64,000 nucleotides of DNA from Alicyclobacillus kakegawensis NBRC 103104 (GTDB lineage: Bacteria > Bacillota > Bacilli > Alicyclobacillales > Alicyclobacillaceae). Where the stretch lies: assembly GCF_001552655.1 (NCBI RefSeq), contig NZ_BCRP01000007.1:62001-126000 (forward strand). The letters are read 5' to 3'. The notes below the pieces were generated by a model. That model had not been told where the DNA came from. It did not search any database and worked only from the letters and a program-made list of their open reading frames with translations. This document shows, piece by piece, positions 16,503 to 36,231 of this stretch (positions are counted from its first letter, which is position 1; each line of letters starts with the position of its first letter). The translations under genes were made by a program, and so were the position numbers.

Positions 16503-16967
16503 TCAATCCGACGGCGGGGGACTCTCATCCAGCCAATTGGTCAAACGACCATTCTGCGCATCGTACTCGGCGGCCACGACGTCCTGCGCCCCGTCTACAT
16601 GAGCGCTGACATACACCTGCCATGTGCTGTTATGCAACACCTGAATTTGAACTTGACCGCTGGGGACAGTCACCTGCTCATTCCACACGTGCGGACCCTC
16701 GTCGCGAAAGTCAGAGAGCACATATTGCATTGCACCCCTGGCCAACCAATACGCCTCCTGCAGATCCGCTTGTTGACGGTGAATCTGCAGCTCCACACCG
16801 GCCGCCATCATCAGCACGGTCACCCAACCGGTCGACAGCGCGGCGAACCCAACGGCCGCGAACAACACGTTGCCCGCATCGCTGTGCCCGCGCAAAGAAA
16901 ACGACCGGAGTCCCGTGCGCGCATCGGGCAGCACAACCCTGCGCTGGGATTGACCGACTCCGTTCAT
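16503..16967 (-). CDS. comGG: ComGG-like competence pseudopilin
   Basis: A 154-residue protein with one hydrophobic segment (NVLFAAVGFAALSTGWVTVLMM, about residues 33-54) and an extracytoplasmic domain with Trp-rich strands (TWQVYVSAHVDG). It lacks the canonical G-F-x-x-x-E cleavage site, as ComGG proteins often do. It is assigned from its place as the last gene of the comG operon and its size. The ATG at 16967 overlaps the end of comGF by 4 nt. It probably forms part of the tip complex of the DNA-uptake pilus. Confidence 0.65.
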   Translation of the reverse strand: MNGVGQSQRRVVLPDARTGLRSFSLRGHSDAGNVLFAAVGFAALSTGWVTVLMMAAGVELQIHRQQADLQEAYWLARGAMQYVLSDFRDEGPHVWNEQVTVPSGQVQIQVLHNSTWQVYVSAHVDGAQDVVAAEYDAQNGRLTNWLDESPPPSD

Positions 16968-17404
16968 GGCATGACACCCCCAATTGTGCATACGTGCAAC
17001 GTATGTTCGTGACCATCCAGCATCGTCACTTTGACAGAGAAGCCGTACCTCTCGGGAGCACAGTTAAGGGACGCAAAGCCATCCGCGAGAACACTGGTCC
17101 CTCCCCCCTCTTGCACACGAACCAACTGGCCCTCCGCATTGACCAGGTAGGTGTAAGAATCTCCATTTACCAAATCCAAGCTGAGCGTATTTGTGGTCGC
17201 ACGCACCCGAGAACTGGCGTGGCCGTCCTGACTCAGGACGCGCGCCGCATTGTCCCAGGCGGCTTCCGATGCCATTGCGTCCAATCCGGCCCTGCATTGT
17301 CGGCCCAGACTGAGCAACCAAAACAGCCCCACCGTCGTCAACACAGCCGACAGCCCGATGACCATGGTCACCTCCAGCAAGGAAAACCCATGTTCACGGC
17401 TCAC
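16964..17404 (-). CDS. comGF: ComGF-like competence pseudopilin
   Basis: A 146-residue class III pseudopilin. With the GTG at 17404 it starts MSREHG-FSLLEVTMVIGLSAV: a short basic leader, the prepilin peptidase site after G and the conserved E at mature +5. The rest is a globular domain with two spaced cysteines (NCAPERYGF, HVCTIGG). The start is chosen because it leaves a normal short leader; a TTG at about 17458 would give a 24-residue leader. It overlaps comGE by 11 nt and comGG by 4 nt. Confidence 0.7.
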   Translation of the reverse strand: MSREHGFSLLEVTMVIGLSAVLTTVGLFWLLSLGRQCRAGLDAMASEAAWDNAARVLSQDGHASSRVRATTNTLSLDLVNGDSYTYLVNAEGQLVRVQEGGGTSVLADGFASLNCAPERYGFSVKVTMLDGHEHTLHVCTIGGVMP

Positions 17405-17711
17405 CAGCCGTTCGACGCACCCAGATGCTCTGCACCGTCCCTTGACAACTCGCTTCAATACGGATCCAGGATGGATCTTCCACATCTTTCTGCACCTCTA
17501 GCTGGCATGTATAGCCATTCACTTGGAGTGAAGCGGGAACGCTTGGGTCACCGGCCGTGTACAATTCCGCAGCCTCATGGGCCGCCTCCACGGCAGCTTG
17601 GACCTGGTCTGACAACTGGATTTCGGAAAACGCTTGGCCCTCTGCGGCCGCCGCCGCTTCCGCCGCCCAGAGGAAGCACATGGCGGCCAGCAACACCTCG
17701 AGCAGAGTCAT
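17394..17711 (-). CDS. comGE: ComGE-like competence pseudopilin, no leader peptide visible
   Basis: A 105-residue protein that opens MTLLEVLLAAMCFLWAAEAA, i.e. directly with what should be the mature N-terminus of a pseudopilin (T-L-L-E-V with E at +5). No basic leader precedes it in frame: a TGA lies four codons upstream of the ATG. The ATG overlaps the comGD stop (ATGA), so the start is well supported. Either this pseudopilin is used without processing or the leader has been lost by a frameshift in this 20-nt region. Two cysteines (YTCQLEV, EASCQGT) may form a disulphide. Confidence 0.6.
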   Translation of the reverse strand: MTLLEVLLAAMCFLWAAEAAAAAEGQAFSEIQLSDQVQAAVEAAHEAAELYTAGDPSVPASLQVNGYTCQLEVQKDVEDPSWIRIEASCQGTVQSIWVRRTAGEP

Positions 17712-18223
17712 GACGACCCTTCACCTGCCGCGTTCGGGCCCATGCTGACCCACCCTGCCCCCGTATACAGGTGGACATCAGCTTCTGTCACACCGTCCGT
17801 CAGGCGCACTACACCCGCTACATGAGCATCCCCGGCCGAGTCGAATGCCACCCATCCTGTGCCCATTTGTAGATATCCATCCTTGTAATTCACTCCGTCC
17901 AGAAACGCCCTGTGCGAGAGGACCTGCGGTCCAACCCAGATGTCATATTGAGGTTGATACTTATGCAGGTCCAAGACGGCATAAGGACCGTCCACTTGGC
18001 TCAGTTCCTGTGTCTCACGAAAATCCCATACCAGTGACTGCGCGGTTTGCGTGACCTGTTGGGCCCCCAGCACGGGCGCCACACCCAACCACGAAACGGA
18101 AAGCGACAGGCCAACCAGCGCAACCGCCGCGCAGACCTCCAAGAGACTGAATCCTGCTTCGGGATTCCGCAGCCTCACCTTCCGCCCGGCAATCCGCAGC
18201 GACACCTCATTGCCCAGTACCAT
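17708..18223 (-). CDS. comGD: ComGD-like competence pseudopilin
   Basis: A 171-residue pseudopilin with a 24-residue basic leader ending NPEAG, cleavage before FSLLEVCAAVALVGLSLSV, and a soluble beta-rich domain (YLQMGTGWVAFDSAG, DVHLYTGAGW). The ATG at 18223 is preceded by GGGGAG at 8 nt. An upstream ATG at 18244 is possible but lacks a site. It overlaps comGC by 17 nt and comGE by 4 nt. Confidence 0.75.
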   Translation of the reverse strand: MVLGNEVSLRIAGRKVRLRNPEAGFSLLEVCAAVALVGLSLSVSWLGVAPVLGAQQVTQTAQSLVWDFRETQELSQVDGPYAVLDLHKYQPQYDIWVGPQVLSHRAFLDGVNYKDGYLQMGTGWVAFDSAGDAHVAGVVRLTDGVTEADVHLYTGAGWVSMGPNAAGEGSS

Positions 18224-18644
18224 TTGTTCCGCTCCCCGCGCCATCCTGGTATGTCACCTGTGCAGATCCGTCCGGCTGAATGGTAATCACGTAGTGCCCG
18301 CCTGCCGGGTCTTGCGGGATGGAATCCAGCAGTTGAGCGTCTTTGAGAGCTTGCAACTGCGCCTGGGAATCTCCGCTCGGATACTGGTGGTAGATCATGT
18401 AATATTCATTCAGCGCCGCCTCAATCGTCTTCTCGTTTTCGGAGCGCGCAACCGCCTGCACGTGCTGGCCGATACCGAACACGTGCGGGGCCACGATGGC
18501 CGTCATGACAGCTAGGATGGAGACGGCCACTACCATTTCCAGCAACGTGAACCCGCCTTCGCCGACAGCCCGCCGGGGATGCCCATCCTTGTAAGACCGA
18601 GGCGCTGACAGCCATTGCGCTACCGCCGCATTGAACCGCTTCAT
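18207..18644 (-). CDS. comGC: ComGC major competence pseudopilin
   Basis: A 145-residue major pseudopilin. Cleavage is predicted after GEGG, before FTLLEMVVAVSILAVMTAIVA, the classical N-terminal helix with E at +5. The C-terminal part (KTIEAALNEYYMIYHQYPSG) has the usual ComGC repeat-helix and ends in a Gly/Thr-rich tail. The leader from the ATG at 18644 is 31 residues, longer than the usual 5-15; no shorter in-frame start is visible. ComGC polymerises into the transformation pilus that binds DNA. Confidence 0.85.
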   Translation of the reverse strand: MKRFNAAVAQWLSAPRSYKDGHPRRAVGEGGFTLLEMVVAVSILAVMTAIVAPHVFGIGQHVQAVARSENEKTIEAALNEYYMIYHQYPSGDSQAQLQALKDAQLLDSIPQDPAGGHYVITIQPDGSAQVTYQDGAGSGTNGTGQ

Positions 18645-18677
18645 TCGTTCGCACACCACCCGTTTTTTGGAATGTGT

Positions 18678-19787
18678 TCAGGGTGCCAGCACGGGGCTGG
18701 ACATGGCCCCCATCAAGTCATACATCGGCAGCAACAGAGCCAACATCGTCACCGCCACGAGCCCGCCGCTCACACTTACCAGAACCGGCTCCAAGATACG
18801 CATGACCGCCTCCATTTGGCGTACCCAGCGCGCGCGGAGAAGAACGGCCGCCCGTTCGAGTCCAGACGAGAGGTTTCCGGTTGTCTCCGTCAGGGACATC
18901 AAGGACGAAAGAATCGGATCCCAGGCACCTGTCAAGGCCGAGGCCAGATTGTTGCCAGCCAAAAGCTCCACTCGCAAGGTCTTGCAGGCGACGGCCAACC
19001 AGCGGGGTTTCCCTTGTTGCTGCAAGACCGACAGGGCGTCCAATATCGGCACACCAGCGCTCACCAGCTGTGCCGTCATGGAGGCGAACGTCGCAGTCCG
19101 CTGCAGGCGGAACCACCTCCCCAGGGACGTGCGATGAATCCACCGCTGTAGCGGGTTGTGCGCCCGACGGTCCAGCCACCAAACGGCCCCCACGGCTGCC
19201 ACGAATCCGGCGAGGACAAACAGGAAGCACACGGGCATCAGGTGCAAGAATTGATTCGCCAGGCGGTAACTCTCCGGGGCTGAGGCCCCGGCCATTTGAT
19301 ACATGTTGGTCATCGACGGTAGGATCATGCGCAAAATGAACAGCTGCAGCACCAGCGTCATGACCATCAACAGCGCGGGGTACGCCGCAGACCGGACCAT
19401 CGCGGCCTGCCACTCCCGGCGTTTCCCTGTCTGCTCACTCCACAGCCGGAGACACTCGGCCAAACGGCCGGATTGCGCCCCCACTTCGAGCATCATGGTG
19501 AGATCTGTCGGCGCCCATGAACGCCACGCGTCACTCAGCAGTTCTCCCCGTTCCACCGCCTCACGAGCCACCTGTAACGCAAACACTCGTCCCCGCTGCC
19601 CACCTGGAGTTTGCAAGCACGCAATGGCCTCCCGCAACGGCAGCCCCGCTTCCAAGAGTTCCGCCAGGTCGCGGCAGAGGCTCACGGAATCGGCAGGACG
19701 CCAGCGTCGCCACCGCGCTCCCAACCGCCCTATACGCTCTGACTTCGACGGACCTGTAAGCGCCTGTGCGTGTTCACGTTCCGGCAT
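18678..19787 (-). CDS. comGB: ComGB type II secretion F-like membrane protein
   Basis: A 369-residue GspF-family platform protein. It has two cytoplasmic GspF helical domains (first DLAELLEAGLPLREAIACLQ; second FASMTAQLVSAGVPILDALS) and three membrane helices (about residues 150-175, 200-225, 340-365). It anchors the pilus motor to the membrane. The ATG at 19787 overlaps the comGA end by 14 nt; an ORF extension to 19868 lies wholly inside comGA. Confidence 0.9.
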   Translation of the reverse strand: MPEREHAQALTGPSKSERIGRLGARWRRWRPADSVSLCRDLAELLEAGLPLREAIACLQTPGGQRGRVFALQVAREAVERGELLSDAWRSWAPTDLTMMLEVGAQSGRLAECLRLWSEQTGKRREWQAAMVRSAAYPALLMVMTLVLQLFILRMILPSMTNMYQMAGASAPESYRLANQFLHLMPVCFLFVLAGFVAAVGAVWWLDRRAHNPLQRWIHRTSLGRWFRLQRTATFASMTAQLVSAGVPILDALSVLQQQGKPRWLAVACKTLRVELLAGNNLASALTGAWDPILSSLMSLTETTGNLSSGLERAAVLLRARWVRQMEAVMRILEPVLVSVSGGLVAVTMLALLLPMYDLMGAMSSPVLAP

Positions 19788-20799
19788 GTTCCAACGGTTC
19801 CTCCCGTATCCGCTGATCACGCGGGCTTGCATGCATGTCGTGCCAAGTCGATCCGGACGCAATCGCATGACGCAGCGCCTGTGTCATGCGATGTACCGTA
19901 AAGCGGGGCACGCGCCGAAGCACCCCGCTGCGACAGGCCTCGCATCCCCGACCCTGGCAGCGATAGCACACTTCGTCCAGCCAGGTCTGAACCACCGCCC
20001 CAATGAGCACATCGGCGATCAAGGATCGCGCCAGGCCAAACTCCGACAACCGCTCGGCCACTCCGATGAGGTCGGCCGCGTGCGCGGTCGCGAGCACCAG
20101 GTGTCCTGTGAGCGCCGCCCGCAACATCACCCGCGCCGTCTCCTCGTCTCTCACCTCGCCGATGGCAATCGCGTCCGGGTCCTGACGCAGGACCGCTTTG
20201 AGCGCGCTCGCGAAAGTGAAGCCGATCTTTTCCCGGATCTGGAACTGGTGGAGTTCTGGAATCGGCCTCTCCACGGGGTCTTCCAGACTGACTACGTGCC
20301 GGCCGCGTTCCGCCAGCCAGCGCATGATGGCATACAAGGTGGTGGTCTTGCCCGAGCCGGTTGGCCCCGCCACCACCATCAGGCCTCCAGCTCCGTTCAG
20401 CATGTGGGACAACTGTCGTACCTGAAGCTCATCCATGCCGAGCTGACGAAAATCGTATCTGTCCGTCCCCGCCAACAGGCGCAGGACCATACATTCACCA
20501 TGAATAAGCGGCAGCGTCGAGACGCGAACGTCGCAGGTCTCCTTTCCCTCCCAGTGAAAGGCGCCGTCCTGGGGCAAACGGCTCTCGGCGACATCCATGT
20601 TCGCCAAGGCTTTGATCCGCCGCACCAACGCGGGGCCGACCGGCGATTCGCTCGCCAAGTAGGGCACTAGAAGACCGTCCAATCGGAATTTCACCTCAAG
20701 CCGGCCGCCACTCACGCTGACATGCACATCCGTGCAACCTTGTTCCAAAGCCCCGTCCAATATCTGTTGGCACAGAAAGACGGCTGACGCTTCCTCCAT
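19774..20799 (-). CDS. comGA: ComGA competence traffic ATPase
   Basis: A 341-residue secretion/pilus assembly ATPase. Walker A is [15 protein letters not shown] near residue 150, the Asp box is SLEDPVERPIPELHQ, Walker B is LRQDPDAIAIGEVRDEE, and the His box is LVLATAHAADL. A cysteine cluster (CYRCQGRGCEACRSG, near residue 280) is the metal-binding CM motif typical of PilB/GspE-type ATPases. It powers extension of the ComG pilus. The ATG has GGAGGGA 6 nt upstream. First gene of comGA-GG. The 121 nt upstream are AT-rich, but I saw no ComK box (AAAA-N5-TTTT) there. Confidence 0.93.
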   Translation of the reverse strand: MEEASAVFLCQQILDGALEQGCTDVHVSVSGGRLEVKFRLDGLLVPYLASESPVGPALVRRIKALANMDVAESRLPQDGAFHWEGKETCDVRVSTLPLIHGECMVLRLLAGTDRYDFRQLGMDELQVRQLSHMLNGAGGLMVVAGPTGSGKTTTLYAIMRWLAERGRHVVSLEDPVERPIPELHQFQIREKIGFTFASALKAVLRQDPDAIAIGEVRDEETARVMLRAALTGHLVLATAHAADLIGVAERLSEFGLARSLIADVLIGAVVQTWLDEVCYRCQGRGCEACRSGVLRRVPRFTVHRMTQALRHAIASGSTWHDMHASPRDQRIREEPLEHAGT

Positions 20800-33091: not shown

Positions 33092-34081
33092 CTAGTGCAG
33101 CACATACACCGTGACCGGTCGAACCCCGAAAGATAGAGCCTCGCTTTCGGTGGATACACAGATGTCAATCCGGTTCCCATGTATCGCTCCCCCCGTGTCG
33201 GCCGCCACCAGCTTGCCGACACCGGGCACATACAGACGACTTCCAAGTGGAATAACCGCCGGATCTACCGAAGCCACTCCGGGCTCTGCCAGAGAGCCGT
33301 CGGCGGTCCGGCCTCCACCCACATACGCGGTCGCGGTCATCACCAATTTTCGCGCAAACTGCAGCGTCCCTCCCCCTCCGCGAGACGCCAGGGAAGCGGA
33401 CCGGGATACCATTGGGCGCTCCCGGGTGCCGACCAGGACGATTTCATGAATTGGTCTGCGCAACACCTTCTTGGTGACTTTGGTGCTGACCTTACGCCCG
33501 TCGACAAACTTGTGGGTTGTCAAGACCTCCTGCAACCCTTTCACACCGTGCGTCAGCACTCGCTGCTGGCCCTCGTACAGTTGATCTGTCATCCGACGCT
33601 CGGTCTGAAACGGTATCGATGCTCGAGAGGTCGACGTACGAGTCTCGACGCGATAAATCCGCACCCATTCCCCTTCATTCAGAGGTTCATGCAACGGCTT
33701 GCTGACGATGTCTTGCTTGCCCATCTCAATGTCGCTCTGCCGCAGCAACTGACCTACGGTCAGCGCCGTGGTCTGCATGTCGCGGGGCACTCCACCGTCC
33801 ACAAGATGGACAAGCTTGGCCCGCCGCACCGTAACCTCCATGCCATCGGTCACCGGCCTATCCGGCTCTGGAACGACCTTGTCATCCGGGGTAAATGTAA
33901 CCCCTTGGCGCCTCAAAAACGACCTCACTGTGCCAAATCCAAATCCGTGTACCACCCTGCGTTCTCCGTTGTCCTGAACGGTTACCGTTTTGTAAGCCGC
34001 GTCGGCTGTCATGGCCGATCCGCCAAACAGGGCTAACACCGCGGCCGAAACGTACAGAACCTTTGACTTCGGGATACGCAC
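33092..34081 (-). CDS. Secreted G5/3D-domain cell-wall protein (YabE/Rpf-like)
   Basis: A 329-residue exported protein. A signal or anchor helix (VLYVSAAVLALFGGSAMTADA) is followed by two DUF348 ubiquitin-like repeats (VTVQDNGERRVVHGFGFGTV; DGGVPRDMQTTALTVGQLL), a G5 domain (about 170-240) and a C-terminal 3D domain. The three Asp of the 3D domain are present (VASVDP, ADTGGAIHG, RIDIC). Such proteins are peptidoglycan-degrading, resuscitation-promoting-factor-like enzymes. The start is GTG at 34081, with AGGAGAGG 7 nt upstream. Bacillus YabE lies elsewhere (near ksgA), so the position beside pilT and the SpoIIB-like gene is unusual. Confidence 0.88.
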   Translation of the reverse strand: MRIPKSKVLYVSAAVLALFGGSAMTADAAYKTVTVQDNGERRVVHGFGFGTVRSFLRRQGVTFTPDDKVVPEPDRPVTDGMEVTVRRAKLVHLVDGGVPRDMQTTALTVGQLLRQSDIEMGKQDIVSKPLHEPLNEGEWVRIYRVETRTSTSRASIPFQTERRMTDQLYEGQQRVLTHGVKGLQEVLTTHKFVDGRKVSTKVTKKVLRRPIHEIVLVGTRERPMVSRSASLASRGGGGTLQFARKLVMTATAYVGGGRTADGSLAEPGVASVDPAVIPLGSRLYVPGVGKLVAADTGGAIHGNRIDICVSTESEALSFGVRPVTVYVLH

Positions 34082-34144
34082 TCCATCACCTCTCCTCAAG
34101 CTTGCACAGGAAAGGTTGCCGGATTTAACGCCGAGACTGTGGCT

Positions 34145-34173
34145 AGTATAGCGGCTGTCCAGAATGAATGCAA
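34145..34173 (-). promoter_or_regulatory. SigA promoter of the G5/3D protein gene
   Basis: TTGCAT (34168-34173) and TATACT (34145-34150) are spaced by 17 nt on the minus strand, 64 nt upstream of the GTG start. Confidence 0.65.
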
Positions 34174-34292
34174 TCCAGCCCTTTCCGTTTCGAGCCGGTT
34201 CGACGAAACCCTTTCCCTGCCGCTGCATACGGCCGCTTTCCGACACGGCTCCAAGAACGGGCATCTTGCGGCTCTCTTTTGATCCTATGCAC

Positions 34293-35294
34293 TCACAAAC
34301 ACGGACTTGATTCAATCAGGCGCTTGTCCAACAGCTGCTGGACGTGTGCAGCGAACGTCTGCATGCCGTGCGCCCGGCCCGTCTGCATGACCGACCGCAG
34401 CTGATGGGTCTGTCCCGTCCGGATGAGATTGGTCACCGCCGGCGTGTTGACGAGCACCTCCAGGACAGGAATCAATCCACCCGCTCTCGCCGGCAACAGC
34501 CGCTGCGCGACAACCGCCCGCAGGACCGAAGCCAATTGCCAACGCACCACATCCCGTCCCTGGTCCAAACTGCCCAAAATGCGTTCAACCGTCTGGACCG
34601 CATCCCCGGTATGCATCGTCGTCAACACCAAGTGACCCGTTTCCGCGGCAGTCAACGCAATTTCCATGGTGGAGGCGTCGCGCAGTTCGCCAATCAATAT
34701 CACATCGGGGTCTTGCCGCAGAGCGGTCCGCAGTCCGGAGGCGAAATCACGCGTGTGCGTGCCCACCTCGCGTTGATCAATGCGTGCCCGCACGGGGTCA
34801 TGCACAAACTCAATCGGGTCCTCAATCGTTACAATGTGCCACGGGCACGCTTGGTTCACACAGTGGACCAAGGCCGCCAGTGTGCTGGACTTGCCGCTTC
34901 CCGTGGGCCCTGTCACCACCACCAGCCCCGGCTGGTTGGCCAGCACCTCGAACCAGGCCGGCAAATGCAGGTCGGCCAAACTGGGAACACGAGCCGGCAG
35001 CAGACGCAAAGCCAGACTCCAGCCTTGATAGGTGCGGTACAAGTGCCCGCGGATGCGCACGAGATCACCCAGACTAAAGGAAAAGTCCAGCTCGTCGCCC
35101 CTTGCCCACGCCCGTCTGTCCACGCTTGGCACAAGCTCCTCCACCATGTCGAGGGTGGCCTTTGCAGGCGCCAGCGTAGAGGGAATCAATTCGAGTCGCC
35201 CCGAGACGCGGAGAGCGGGAGGAACACCGGAACCCACGTGGAGGTCGGAGGCGCCCCGTGCCAGCGCGTATTCAATCCACGCCTTTAAGCCCAT
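34293..35294 (-). CDS. pilT: Type IV pilus twitching ATPase PilT
   Basis: A 333-residue PilT retraction ATPase. Walker A is GPTGSGKSSTLAALV near residue 125, the Asp box is TIEDPIEFVH, Walker B with the conserved arginine is ALRQDPDVILIGELRD, and the His box is LVLTTMHTGD. The N-terminal domain (ASDLHVGSGVPPALRVSGRL) and absence of a metal-binding cysteine cluster mark PilT rather than PilB/ComGA. The ATG at 35294 overlaps the prepilin peptidase gene by 10 nt. Together with the comG operon 14 kb away this suggests a retractable pilus, which Bacillus subtilis lacks as a dedicated ATPase. Confidence 0.93.
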   Translation of the reverse strand: MGLKAWIEYALARGASDLHVGSGVPPALRVSGRLELIPSTLAPAKATLDMVEELVPSVDRRAWARGDELDFSFSLGDLVRIRGHLYRTYQGWSLALRLLPARVPSLADLHLPAWFEVLANQPGLVVVTGPTGSGKSSTLAALVHCVNQACPWHIVTIEDPIEFVHDPVRARIDQREVGTHTRDFASGLRTALRQDPDVILIGELRDASTMEIALTAAETGHLVLTTMHTGDAVQTVERILGSLDQGRDVVRWQLASVLRAVVAQRLLPARAGGLIPVLEVLVNTPAVTNLIRTGQTHQLRSVMQTGRAHGMQTFAAHVQQLLDKRLIESSPCL

Positions 35295-35863
35295 GACGCC
35301 CCTCCCAGTCCCGCCAACGGAACATACGACGACACGAGGTGCGGCACCACCCCGAAGCACAACCCGCACCCAGCCAACAGAAAGGGGGCAAAAGGAAACG
35401 GTTGTCCAGCCCGCAGGCGCCCCAATCCCCATAACAGCCCCCCGCACAGTGCCGCAGTGGAAAACGCCAGCGTCAGCGCGATCATGCCCAACACGGGTCC
35501 GAACACAGCACCGATGGAAAGGGATAGCTTCACATCCCCCCACCCCACCCCTCCGGTCAGCCACGCCAGCACCGAGAGCCCTCCTGCACACACGGCCAGA
35601 CCCAGCAAAGGTCTAACCGGCCCCTGCCCGGCCAAGGCAAGACCCAGCACAACCAACACCAGCGCGCCAGGTAAGGTGAGCCAGTTCGGAATGCGCATGC
35701 AACACAGGTCCCAGACTGTGGCCATCCACAACACGACCCAGAAGGTGCACCAGACCAGCGATTGCGACCAGGCGTTGGTACAGAGGGTCCAATTCACCAG
35801 CCCAGCCGTCACCCCAGTTGCCCCGGCAATAGCCAGGTGTCGGCATCGAATCGCGTCGAGCAT
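35285..35863 (-). CDS. Prepilin peptidase (A24 family, short form)
   Basis: A 192-residue membrane protease with about six helices. The two catalytic aspartates are visible: TVWDLCCMRIPN near residue 52 and GVGWGDVKLSL near residue 105 (the G-x-G-D motif). The N-terminal N-methyltransferase domain and its cysteine cluster found in ComC/PilD are absent. It would cleave the leaders of ComGC, ComGD and ComGF, but may not methylate them. The start is ATG at 35863, with AGGAGGGG 4 nt upstream. It forms an operon with pilT and replaces comC at this locus. Confidence 0.85.
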   Translation of the reverse strand: MLDAIRCRHLAIAGATGVTAGLVNWTLCTNAWSQSLVWCTFWVVLWMATVWDLCCMRIPNWLTLPGALVLVVLGLALAGQGPVRPLLGLAVCAGGLSVLAWLTGGVGWGDVKLSLSIGAVFGPVLGMIALTLAFSTAALCGGLLWGLGRLRAGQPFPFAPFLLAGCGLCFGVVPHLVSSYVPLAGLGGASWA

Positions 35864-36048: not shown

Positions 36049-36231
36049 TTGAATTTCCTGCGTGCTCTGGTATGGATGAGCATACTGATGATAGTTTTGT
36101 GCGTCGCGCTGGTGTTCGTAGGTCTGCTGTTGAAGGCTGCGCTTGTCTTGGCTCTCCTGGCGCTCGCCTATTATTGGTTTACCCGCGCGCGAGCCAAGCG
36201 GCGAAAGACGGAACCAAATTGGCGGCTGTAA
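36049..36231 (+). CDS. Small two-helix membrane protein, unknown function
   Basis: A 60-residue protein with two closely spaced hydrophobic segments (LRALVWMSILMIVLCVALVF; LLLKAALVLALLALAYYWF) and a basic tail (TRARAKRRKTEPNWRL). The start is TTG at 36049 with GGGAGGGAG 4 nt upstream and an extended -10 promoter before it; a strong terminator follows. This is a complete single-gene unit on the plus strand, so it is likely real. I recognise no family. The positive tail suggests the C-terminus is in the cytoplasm. Confidence 0.65.
   Translation: MNFLRALVWMSILMIVLCVALVFVGLLLKAALVLALLALAYYWFTRARAKRRKTEPNWRL

Follow-up and report, generated by a model that had tools for sequence, protein, structure and literature searches.

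The window analysed here, a stretch of 64,000 nucleotides from Alicyclobacillus kakegawensis NBRC 103104, raises the question of which filament is served by a PilT-type ATPase whose gene lies beside that of a prepilin peptidase, in a genome where comG appears to encode the main remaining type IV filament. The relevant passages of PMC10790768, PMC7212644 and PMC8262900 describe the Com pilus as an assembly of eight proteins with PilT not among them, whereas in the window pilT adjoins comC. As far as the pertinent sections of five papers go (PMC7212644, PMC8262900, PMC10564135, PMC6668835, PMC10191384), the monoderm Com pilus either works without PilT or has a retraction factor described as unknown, and the passage on pneumococcal pilus retraction in PMC12040237 calls its mechanism unclear. 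The part of PMC3244431 that deals with Gram-positive operons places pilT in pil operons and lists none for com. We found no report of PilT with Com pili in the Alicyclobacillus group in the open-licence PMC literature. A monoderm group that has PilT beside comC, and comG as its main remaining type IV filament, offers a direct test case for Com-pilus retraction.

The pilT gene and a short prepilin peptidase gene in the comC position

The pilT gene (34293..35294, minus strand) starts with an ATG at 35294 and encodes a 333-aa PilT/PilU-family ATPase that scored 372 bits in a profile search with the PilT/PilU model TIGR01420 (curated cut-off 319), and its closest PDB matches were PilTs (5zfq, E 4e-73; 2gsz; 6ojx). 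We found in its sequence all of the motifs that we take to be the Walker A, acidic, His box and NLIR motifs of PilT, and the core residues of these motor motifs were invariant in 35/35 aligned PilTs, 31 of which came from PilB-less genomes. On sequence comparison PilT has none of the cysteine cluster of ComGA-type ATPases, which is present in the ComGA of the window. The original prediction of a true PilT with ATPase motifs and no such cluster was therefore upheld, and its placement of pilT and peptidase at 34293-35863 was exact. Such a protein may power pilus retraction. A search for related loci returned three, of which only L053, from A. shizuokensis (assigned by the current NCBI taxonomy to Paenalicyclobacillus, class Bacilli), was close; PilT of A. 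shizuokensis NBRC 103103 is 90% identical to that of the window.

Immediately before pilT on the same strand lies a gene for an A24 prepilin peptidase of 192 aa (35285..35863, minus strand), whose start at 35863 was chosen from the AGGAGG-like site that precedes it. The protein matched PF01478 (about 1e-11, 45.7 bits against a cut-off of 26.5), and its catalytic Asp52 and GxGD Asp110 were invariant in an alignment with 35 relatives. Profile searches for the A24_N methyltransferase domain (PF06750) gave no match in this protein and, at a threshold of 0.001, none anywhere in the whole genomes of this strain (G000) and its congeners G021 and G022, so that the peptidase with both catalytic aspartates and no methyltransferase domain that had been predicted holds at the level of the genome. 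The A24 and pilT frames overlap by 10 nt, which makes a common transcript likely and agrees with the operon that had been proposed.

The genes around the pair run in the order valS, folC, murC, A24, pilT, a gene for a G5/3D-domain protein, a gene for a SPOR protein, radC, mreBCD and minCD, followed by spoIVFAB, rplU, rpmA, spo0B, obg and comG, with names taken from Pfam matches where these were run and otherwise from a reading of the translations. We take the valS-folC to radC-mreB arrangement to be the gene order around comC in B. subtilis; the A24 peptidase gene is therefore comC by position, a point that the original prediction missed. ComC is given a methyltransferase domain in the section of PMC10790768 that describes it, and the enzyme of the window lacks one. 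In consisting of the peptidase domain only it resembles the short A24 peptidases of the TadV/CpaA type; it differs from them in its location, which is the comC slot, adjacent to pilT. A Tad-like locus elsewhere in the genome contains a short A24 gene of its own.

A comG cluster had been noted 14 kb away, and we confirmed comGA-comGB-comGC-comGD at 17708-20799 on the minus strand, at about that distance from the A24 and pilT genes. The comGA gene (19774..20799, minus strand) encodes an extension ATPase with the Cys cluster that matched PF00437 at 298 bits; its score against NF041000, 241 bits, was below the cut-off of 300, as were the ComGA scores throughout the 59 genomes surveyed in the order. 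The platform gene comGB (18678..19868, minus strand; two stretches of PF00482, with matches to ComGB and GspF models) probably starts further in than the listed reading frame. The major pilin gene comGC (18207..18659, minus strand) has the N_methyl motif and matched the GspG and ComGC models. The comGD-like minor prepilin gene (17708..18244, minus strand) has a prepilin signal at C7:80095-80166 with a sub-cut-off score of 16.7 bits and matched GspH weakly. A third prepilin gene of the cluster (16964..17485, minus strand), the frame of which was taken from the list of open reading frames alone, matched N_methyl at C7:79330-79401 (17330-17401 of the window) with 21.1 bits. ComGA, ComGB, ComGC and minor prepilins are encoded in one operon, as in a Com pilus, and a search of the whole assembly also found ComEC. 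With respect to comGA-comGB-comGC-comGD, the comC slot and ComEC, this system is like the Com (type IVd) pilus of B. subtilis and Streptococcus. The locus is ordinary in its parts and new in their combination.

Other type IV filaments in the genome

We searched the whole assembly (3.42 Mb in 71 contigs, 99.75% complete) for another complete type IV pilus operon to which PilT could be assigned, and found none. It encodes only three T2SSE ATPases, namely ComGA, PilT and a Tad-type ATPase on contig C24. Across the whole assembly, the PilB model matched nothing at E<=1e-95 and the PilM profile nothing at E<=1e-8, a profile that recovered PilM from just 19 of the 59 genomes and overlooks divergent forms such as that of G030; the check for other pilB and pilM genes that had been suggested thus came back empty. 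PilB and PilM are likewise absent from the two congeners. No prepilin scored above the cut-off outside comG anywhere in the assembly. Weak sub-cut-off N_methyl matches on contigs C36 and C5 were set aside, as one resembles a membrane peptide of 63 aa and the other a membrane protein similar to cytochrome b. A type IVa pilus with a divergent PilB or pilins that were overlooked, or that fall in an assembly gap, could draw on the 71 contigs and on those weak matches; against the appearance of the two matched proteins, the completeness of the assembly and the same lack of PilB and PilM in both congeners, we regard such a hidden pilus as extremely unlikely.

The only type IV filament of the genome besides Com is encoded by a Tad-like locus on C24 that comprises a TadA-type ATPase, T2SSF, SAF/CpaB and ParA-like genes and its own short A24 gene, so that TadA, platform and peptidase stand together in one locus, as in a Tad pilus, separate from comC and comG. 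The A24 gene of this locus and the one adjoining pilT are the only two in the assembly. That PilT serves the Tad-like filament is conceivable, given the presence of this gene set in the same genome, and we consider it very unlikely: the locus has an A24 gene of its own, PilT adjoins comC rather than Tad, and the Tad ATPases of Caulobacter are cited in the relevant passage of PMC6668835 as doing both jobs. Moreover, the congener G021 and the PilB-less genomes G006, G008, G017 and G036 keep PilT with a single A24 gene, which leaves no peptidase for a Tad locus there and thus argues against Tad service; the TadA search itself covered G000 alone. The Tad-like locus (L052, C24:5001-25000) adjoins a gene for an actin-like ALP protein, a neighbour suggestive of a location on a mobile element or plasmid.

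PilT without PilB and the type IVa operon of relatives

The occurrence of PilT without PilB was surveyed in 59 genomes of the order, in which the state of PilB was scored from match scores and frame lengths. PilT exceeded the cut-off in 55/59, ComGA-like ATPases were present in 59/59 and ComEC in 57/59, and PilB was found in 37 genomes and absent from 22. Twenty of the 22 PilB-less genomes have PilT, the two without it being 83% and 73% complete, and PilT was retained in all 16 PilB-less genomes of at least 90% completeness. Both states of PilB occur within three genera (g2, g3 and g9).

A sample of 398 genomes of the class extended this picture. A second ATPase match in families f18 and f32 had been taken as PilB and on closer look was ComGA, so PilB was searched directly and defined by E<=1e-140. 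PilT was present in 224 genomes (223 over the cut-off and G074 at 316 bits) and PilB in 197; two genomes have PilB without PilT, and 29 have PilT without PilB, distributed over f1 (10), f2 (1), f18 (11), f32 (2), f37 (3), f16 (1) and f44 (1). The PilT/A24 pair without PilB is not peculiar to this strain. PilT is also missing from 172 of the 201 PilB-less genomes, and therefore a Com pilus needs no PilT in general; within f18 it is absent from 8 of the 19 genomes sampled.

We compared the surroundings of PilT, using stop-to-stop frames, in 31 PilB-less genomes (17 of the order and 14 from outside it; G031, G333, G197, G207 and G226 were left out). In 27 of the 31 loci the frames of pilT and A24 either overlap or are separated by no more than 100 nt, in the order A24-pilT in 10 and pilT-A24 in 17. 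Of the four exceptions, G006 and G008 have the same slot with a G5/3D gene between pilT and A24, and G018 (L073) and G036 (L071) have a lone pilT away from comC with no pil gene within 7 kb. By coordinates, pilT is apart from A24 in G019 and G020. The f18 and f32 loci likewise occupy the murC-radC-mreB (comC) slot where contig and stretch show it.

Exactly this slot holds an operon of the type pilB-pilT-pilC-pilin-pilD (type IVa) in G030, G023 and G041. The genus g9 contains both states: G030 has pilB, pilT, pilC, pilin, pilD, minor pilins and PilM/N/O-like genes (the last assigned by reading, with no model match), and G032 has only pilT and the peptidase gene (pilD) in the slot. These two genomes give a direct picture of operon collapse, and the A24-pilT pair is a remnant of the type IVa pilus operon that is still present in the slot of relatives. 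The peptidase gene occupies either of two positions in intact operons, and the two gene orders of the remnants correspond to these, an agreement that favours more than one collapse. In an unrooted tree of PilT (70 rows), the state of PilB changes at least six times as drawn, and the well-supported branches force two of these changes. The four rows intended as a PilB outgroup for this tree were themselves PilT sequences of the same loci, and ComGA as sole outgroup formed a saturated branch, so the tree was left unrooted. The bona fide PilT of this genome is a feature shared with the monoderm type IVa pili of S. sanguinis and Clostridium, from which the genome differs in having no PilB, PilM, A24_N domain or non-comG pilins.

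The methyltransferase domain follows a related pattern. PF06750 is missing from the whole genomes of g1 (3/3), g6 (2/2) and g13 (1/1), and, among genomes at least 90% complete, from 6 of 16 without PilB versus 1 of 33 with PilB, counts from related genomes that are not independent and are uncorrected for kinship. Among 35 aligned A24 proteins, 17 matched PF06750; the 18 others comprise the six of g1, g6 and g13 together with the full set of 12 from f18 and f32. A peptidase-only ComC thus accompanies the loss of PilB in several lineages. None of the 12 ComC-slot peptidases of f18 and f32 (L115-L126) matched the methyltransferase-domain model, apparently through a loss separate from that in the genus of the window.

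The original prediction had assigned PilT to the ComG pilus. That pairing is supported by the lack of a rival pilus operon and by the recurrence of the pair without PilB in several families, and it stands as an interpretation; the type IVa remnant and the Tad-like locus had been overlooked. In G004, G014 and G007, PilB and PilM are encoded far from pilT, which stays about 13 kb from comGA, and in these genomes a single PilT may serve both filament systems.

Possible roles of the retained PilT

We consider it reasonably probable that the window contains the comC locus of a monoderm Com pilus with a dedicated PilT, kept as the retraction motor of that pilus after a type IVa system collapsed. The observed basis of this explanation is gene content, synteny, motif integrity, purifying selection and recurrence. 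In ancestors the comC slot would have held a type IVa pilus operon, from which PilB, PilC, the pilins and PilMNO would have been lost; we propose that the peptidase was retained because the ComG pilins need a prepilin peptidase, and PilT because it acts on the Com pilus. ComGA and the platform protein ComGB would extend a filament of ComGC, the subunits of which would be cut by the short A24 peptidase without N-methylation; judging from gene content, the Com pilins may be unmethylated. PilT hexamers, which may dock on ComGB, would replace ComGA there and drive depolymerisation, and the resulting retraction would draw the attached DNA across the wall to ComEA/ComEC. A filament that takes up DNA by means of a PilT motor would resemble in its action the competence type IVa pilus of V. 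cholerae, a diderm system with a secretin and PilMNOP; the present system differs from it in that the filament genes are comG.

Codon substitution rates against G022 were in keeping with a functional gene. The dN/dS of pilT was 0.17, compared with 0.12 for comGA, 0.18 for comGB and 0.29 for A24, and that of murC, radC, mreB, mreC, minD, spoIVFB and obg was 0.03-0.11; several dS values against L061 were saturated, and a value for the G5/3D gene against L062 was dropped because its pN of 0.74 reflects a frame artefact. PilT evolves under purifying selection, with a constraint like that on the com genes. This bears on the reading of PilT as a relic on its way out, carried along by translational coupling with comC. 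The PilTs of G000, G021 and G022 do score lower (372-376 bits) than any other complete PilT of the order and lie on a long branch in the PilT tree; set against the rate of pilT, its fully conserved motifs and its retention in all 16 of the order's complete PilB-less genomes, across two gene orders and several families, this makes a relic very unlikely.

The main rival holds that the Com pilus keeps PilT for a role other than retraction, in which it would modulate extension, take apart stalled filaments or return pilins for reuse, with retraction left to ComGA or to spontaneous collapse. PilT-independent retraction of Com pili is reported or proposed in the relevant passages of PMC8262900 and PMC6668835, PilT of the V. 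cholerae MSHA pilus promotes extension too according to the part of PMC9815625 that deals with it, and most ComG-bearing Bacilli have no PilT. The motor motifs of the window's PilT are nevertheless intact and canonical, with no hint in the sequence of an altered activity, and we think a non-retraction role possible, though on balance unlikely. Retraction of the Com pilus by PilT acting through ComGB would be the simplest account.

Across 11 PilB-less members of the order, we compared the rate of PilT with those of com and control genes and found no covariation specific to com: r was 0.27 for comGA (56 of 1000 permutations as high), -0.32 for comGB and 0.37 for the control mreC. ComK-like boxes were not enriched near the A24-pilT or comG operons (3 in the window versus 10.3 expected), and thus gave no sign of shared control.

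PilT may supply the otherwise missing motor for drawing DNA inwards, and is a good lead on the open question of Com-pilus retraction. In evolutionary terms, PilT and the Com genes stayed together, or rejoined, after PilB was lost. We regard as evenly balanced the wider proposition that a whole branch of the Bacilli operates the Com pilus with two motors, ComGA for extension and a salvaged type IVa PilT for retraction, so that the account without a retraction ATPase would be a peculiarity of Bacillus and Streptococcus, and that this salvage took place more than once, often with pilin methylation lost.

Two further genes adjoin the pair. Directly downstream of pilT, and probably co-transcribed with it, is a gene for a G5/3D-domain wall protein (33092..34315, minus strand; PF07501, PF06725 and DUF348; true start uncertain), which is kept in the slot in most relatives. 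This DUF348/G5/3D protein could loosen the wall for a pilus, or be unrelated to it. Between murC and A24, on the opposite strand, a 51-aa frame at 36076-36228 (plus strand) would encode a one-helix membrane protein; the frame recurs at the same place in A. shizuokensis (92% identity) and G021 (52%).
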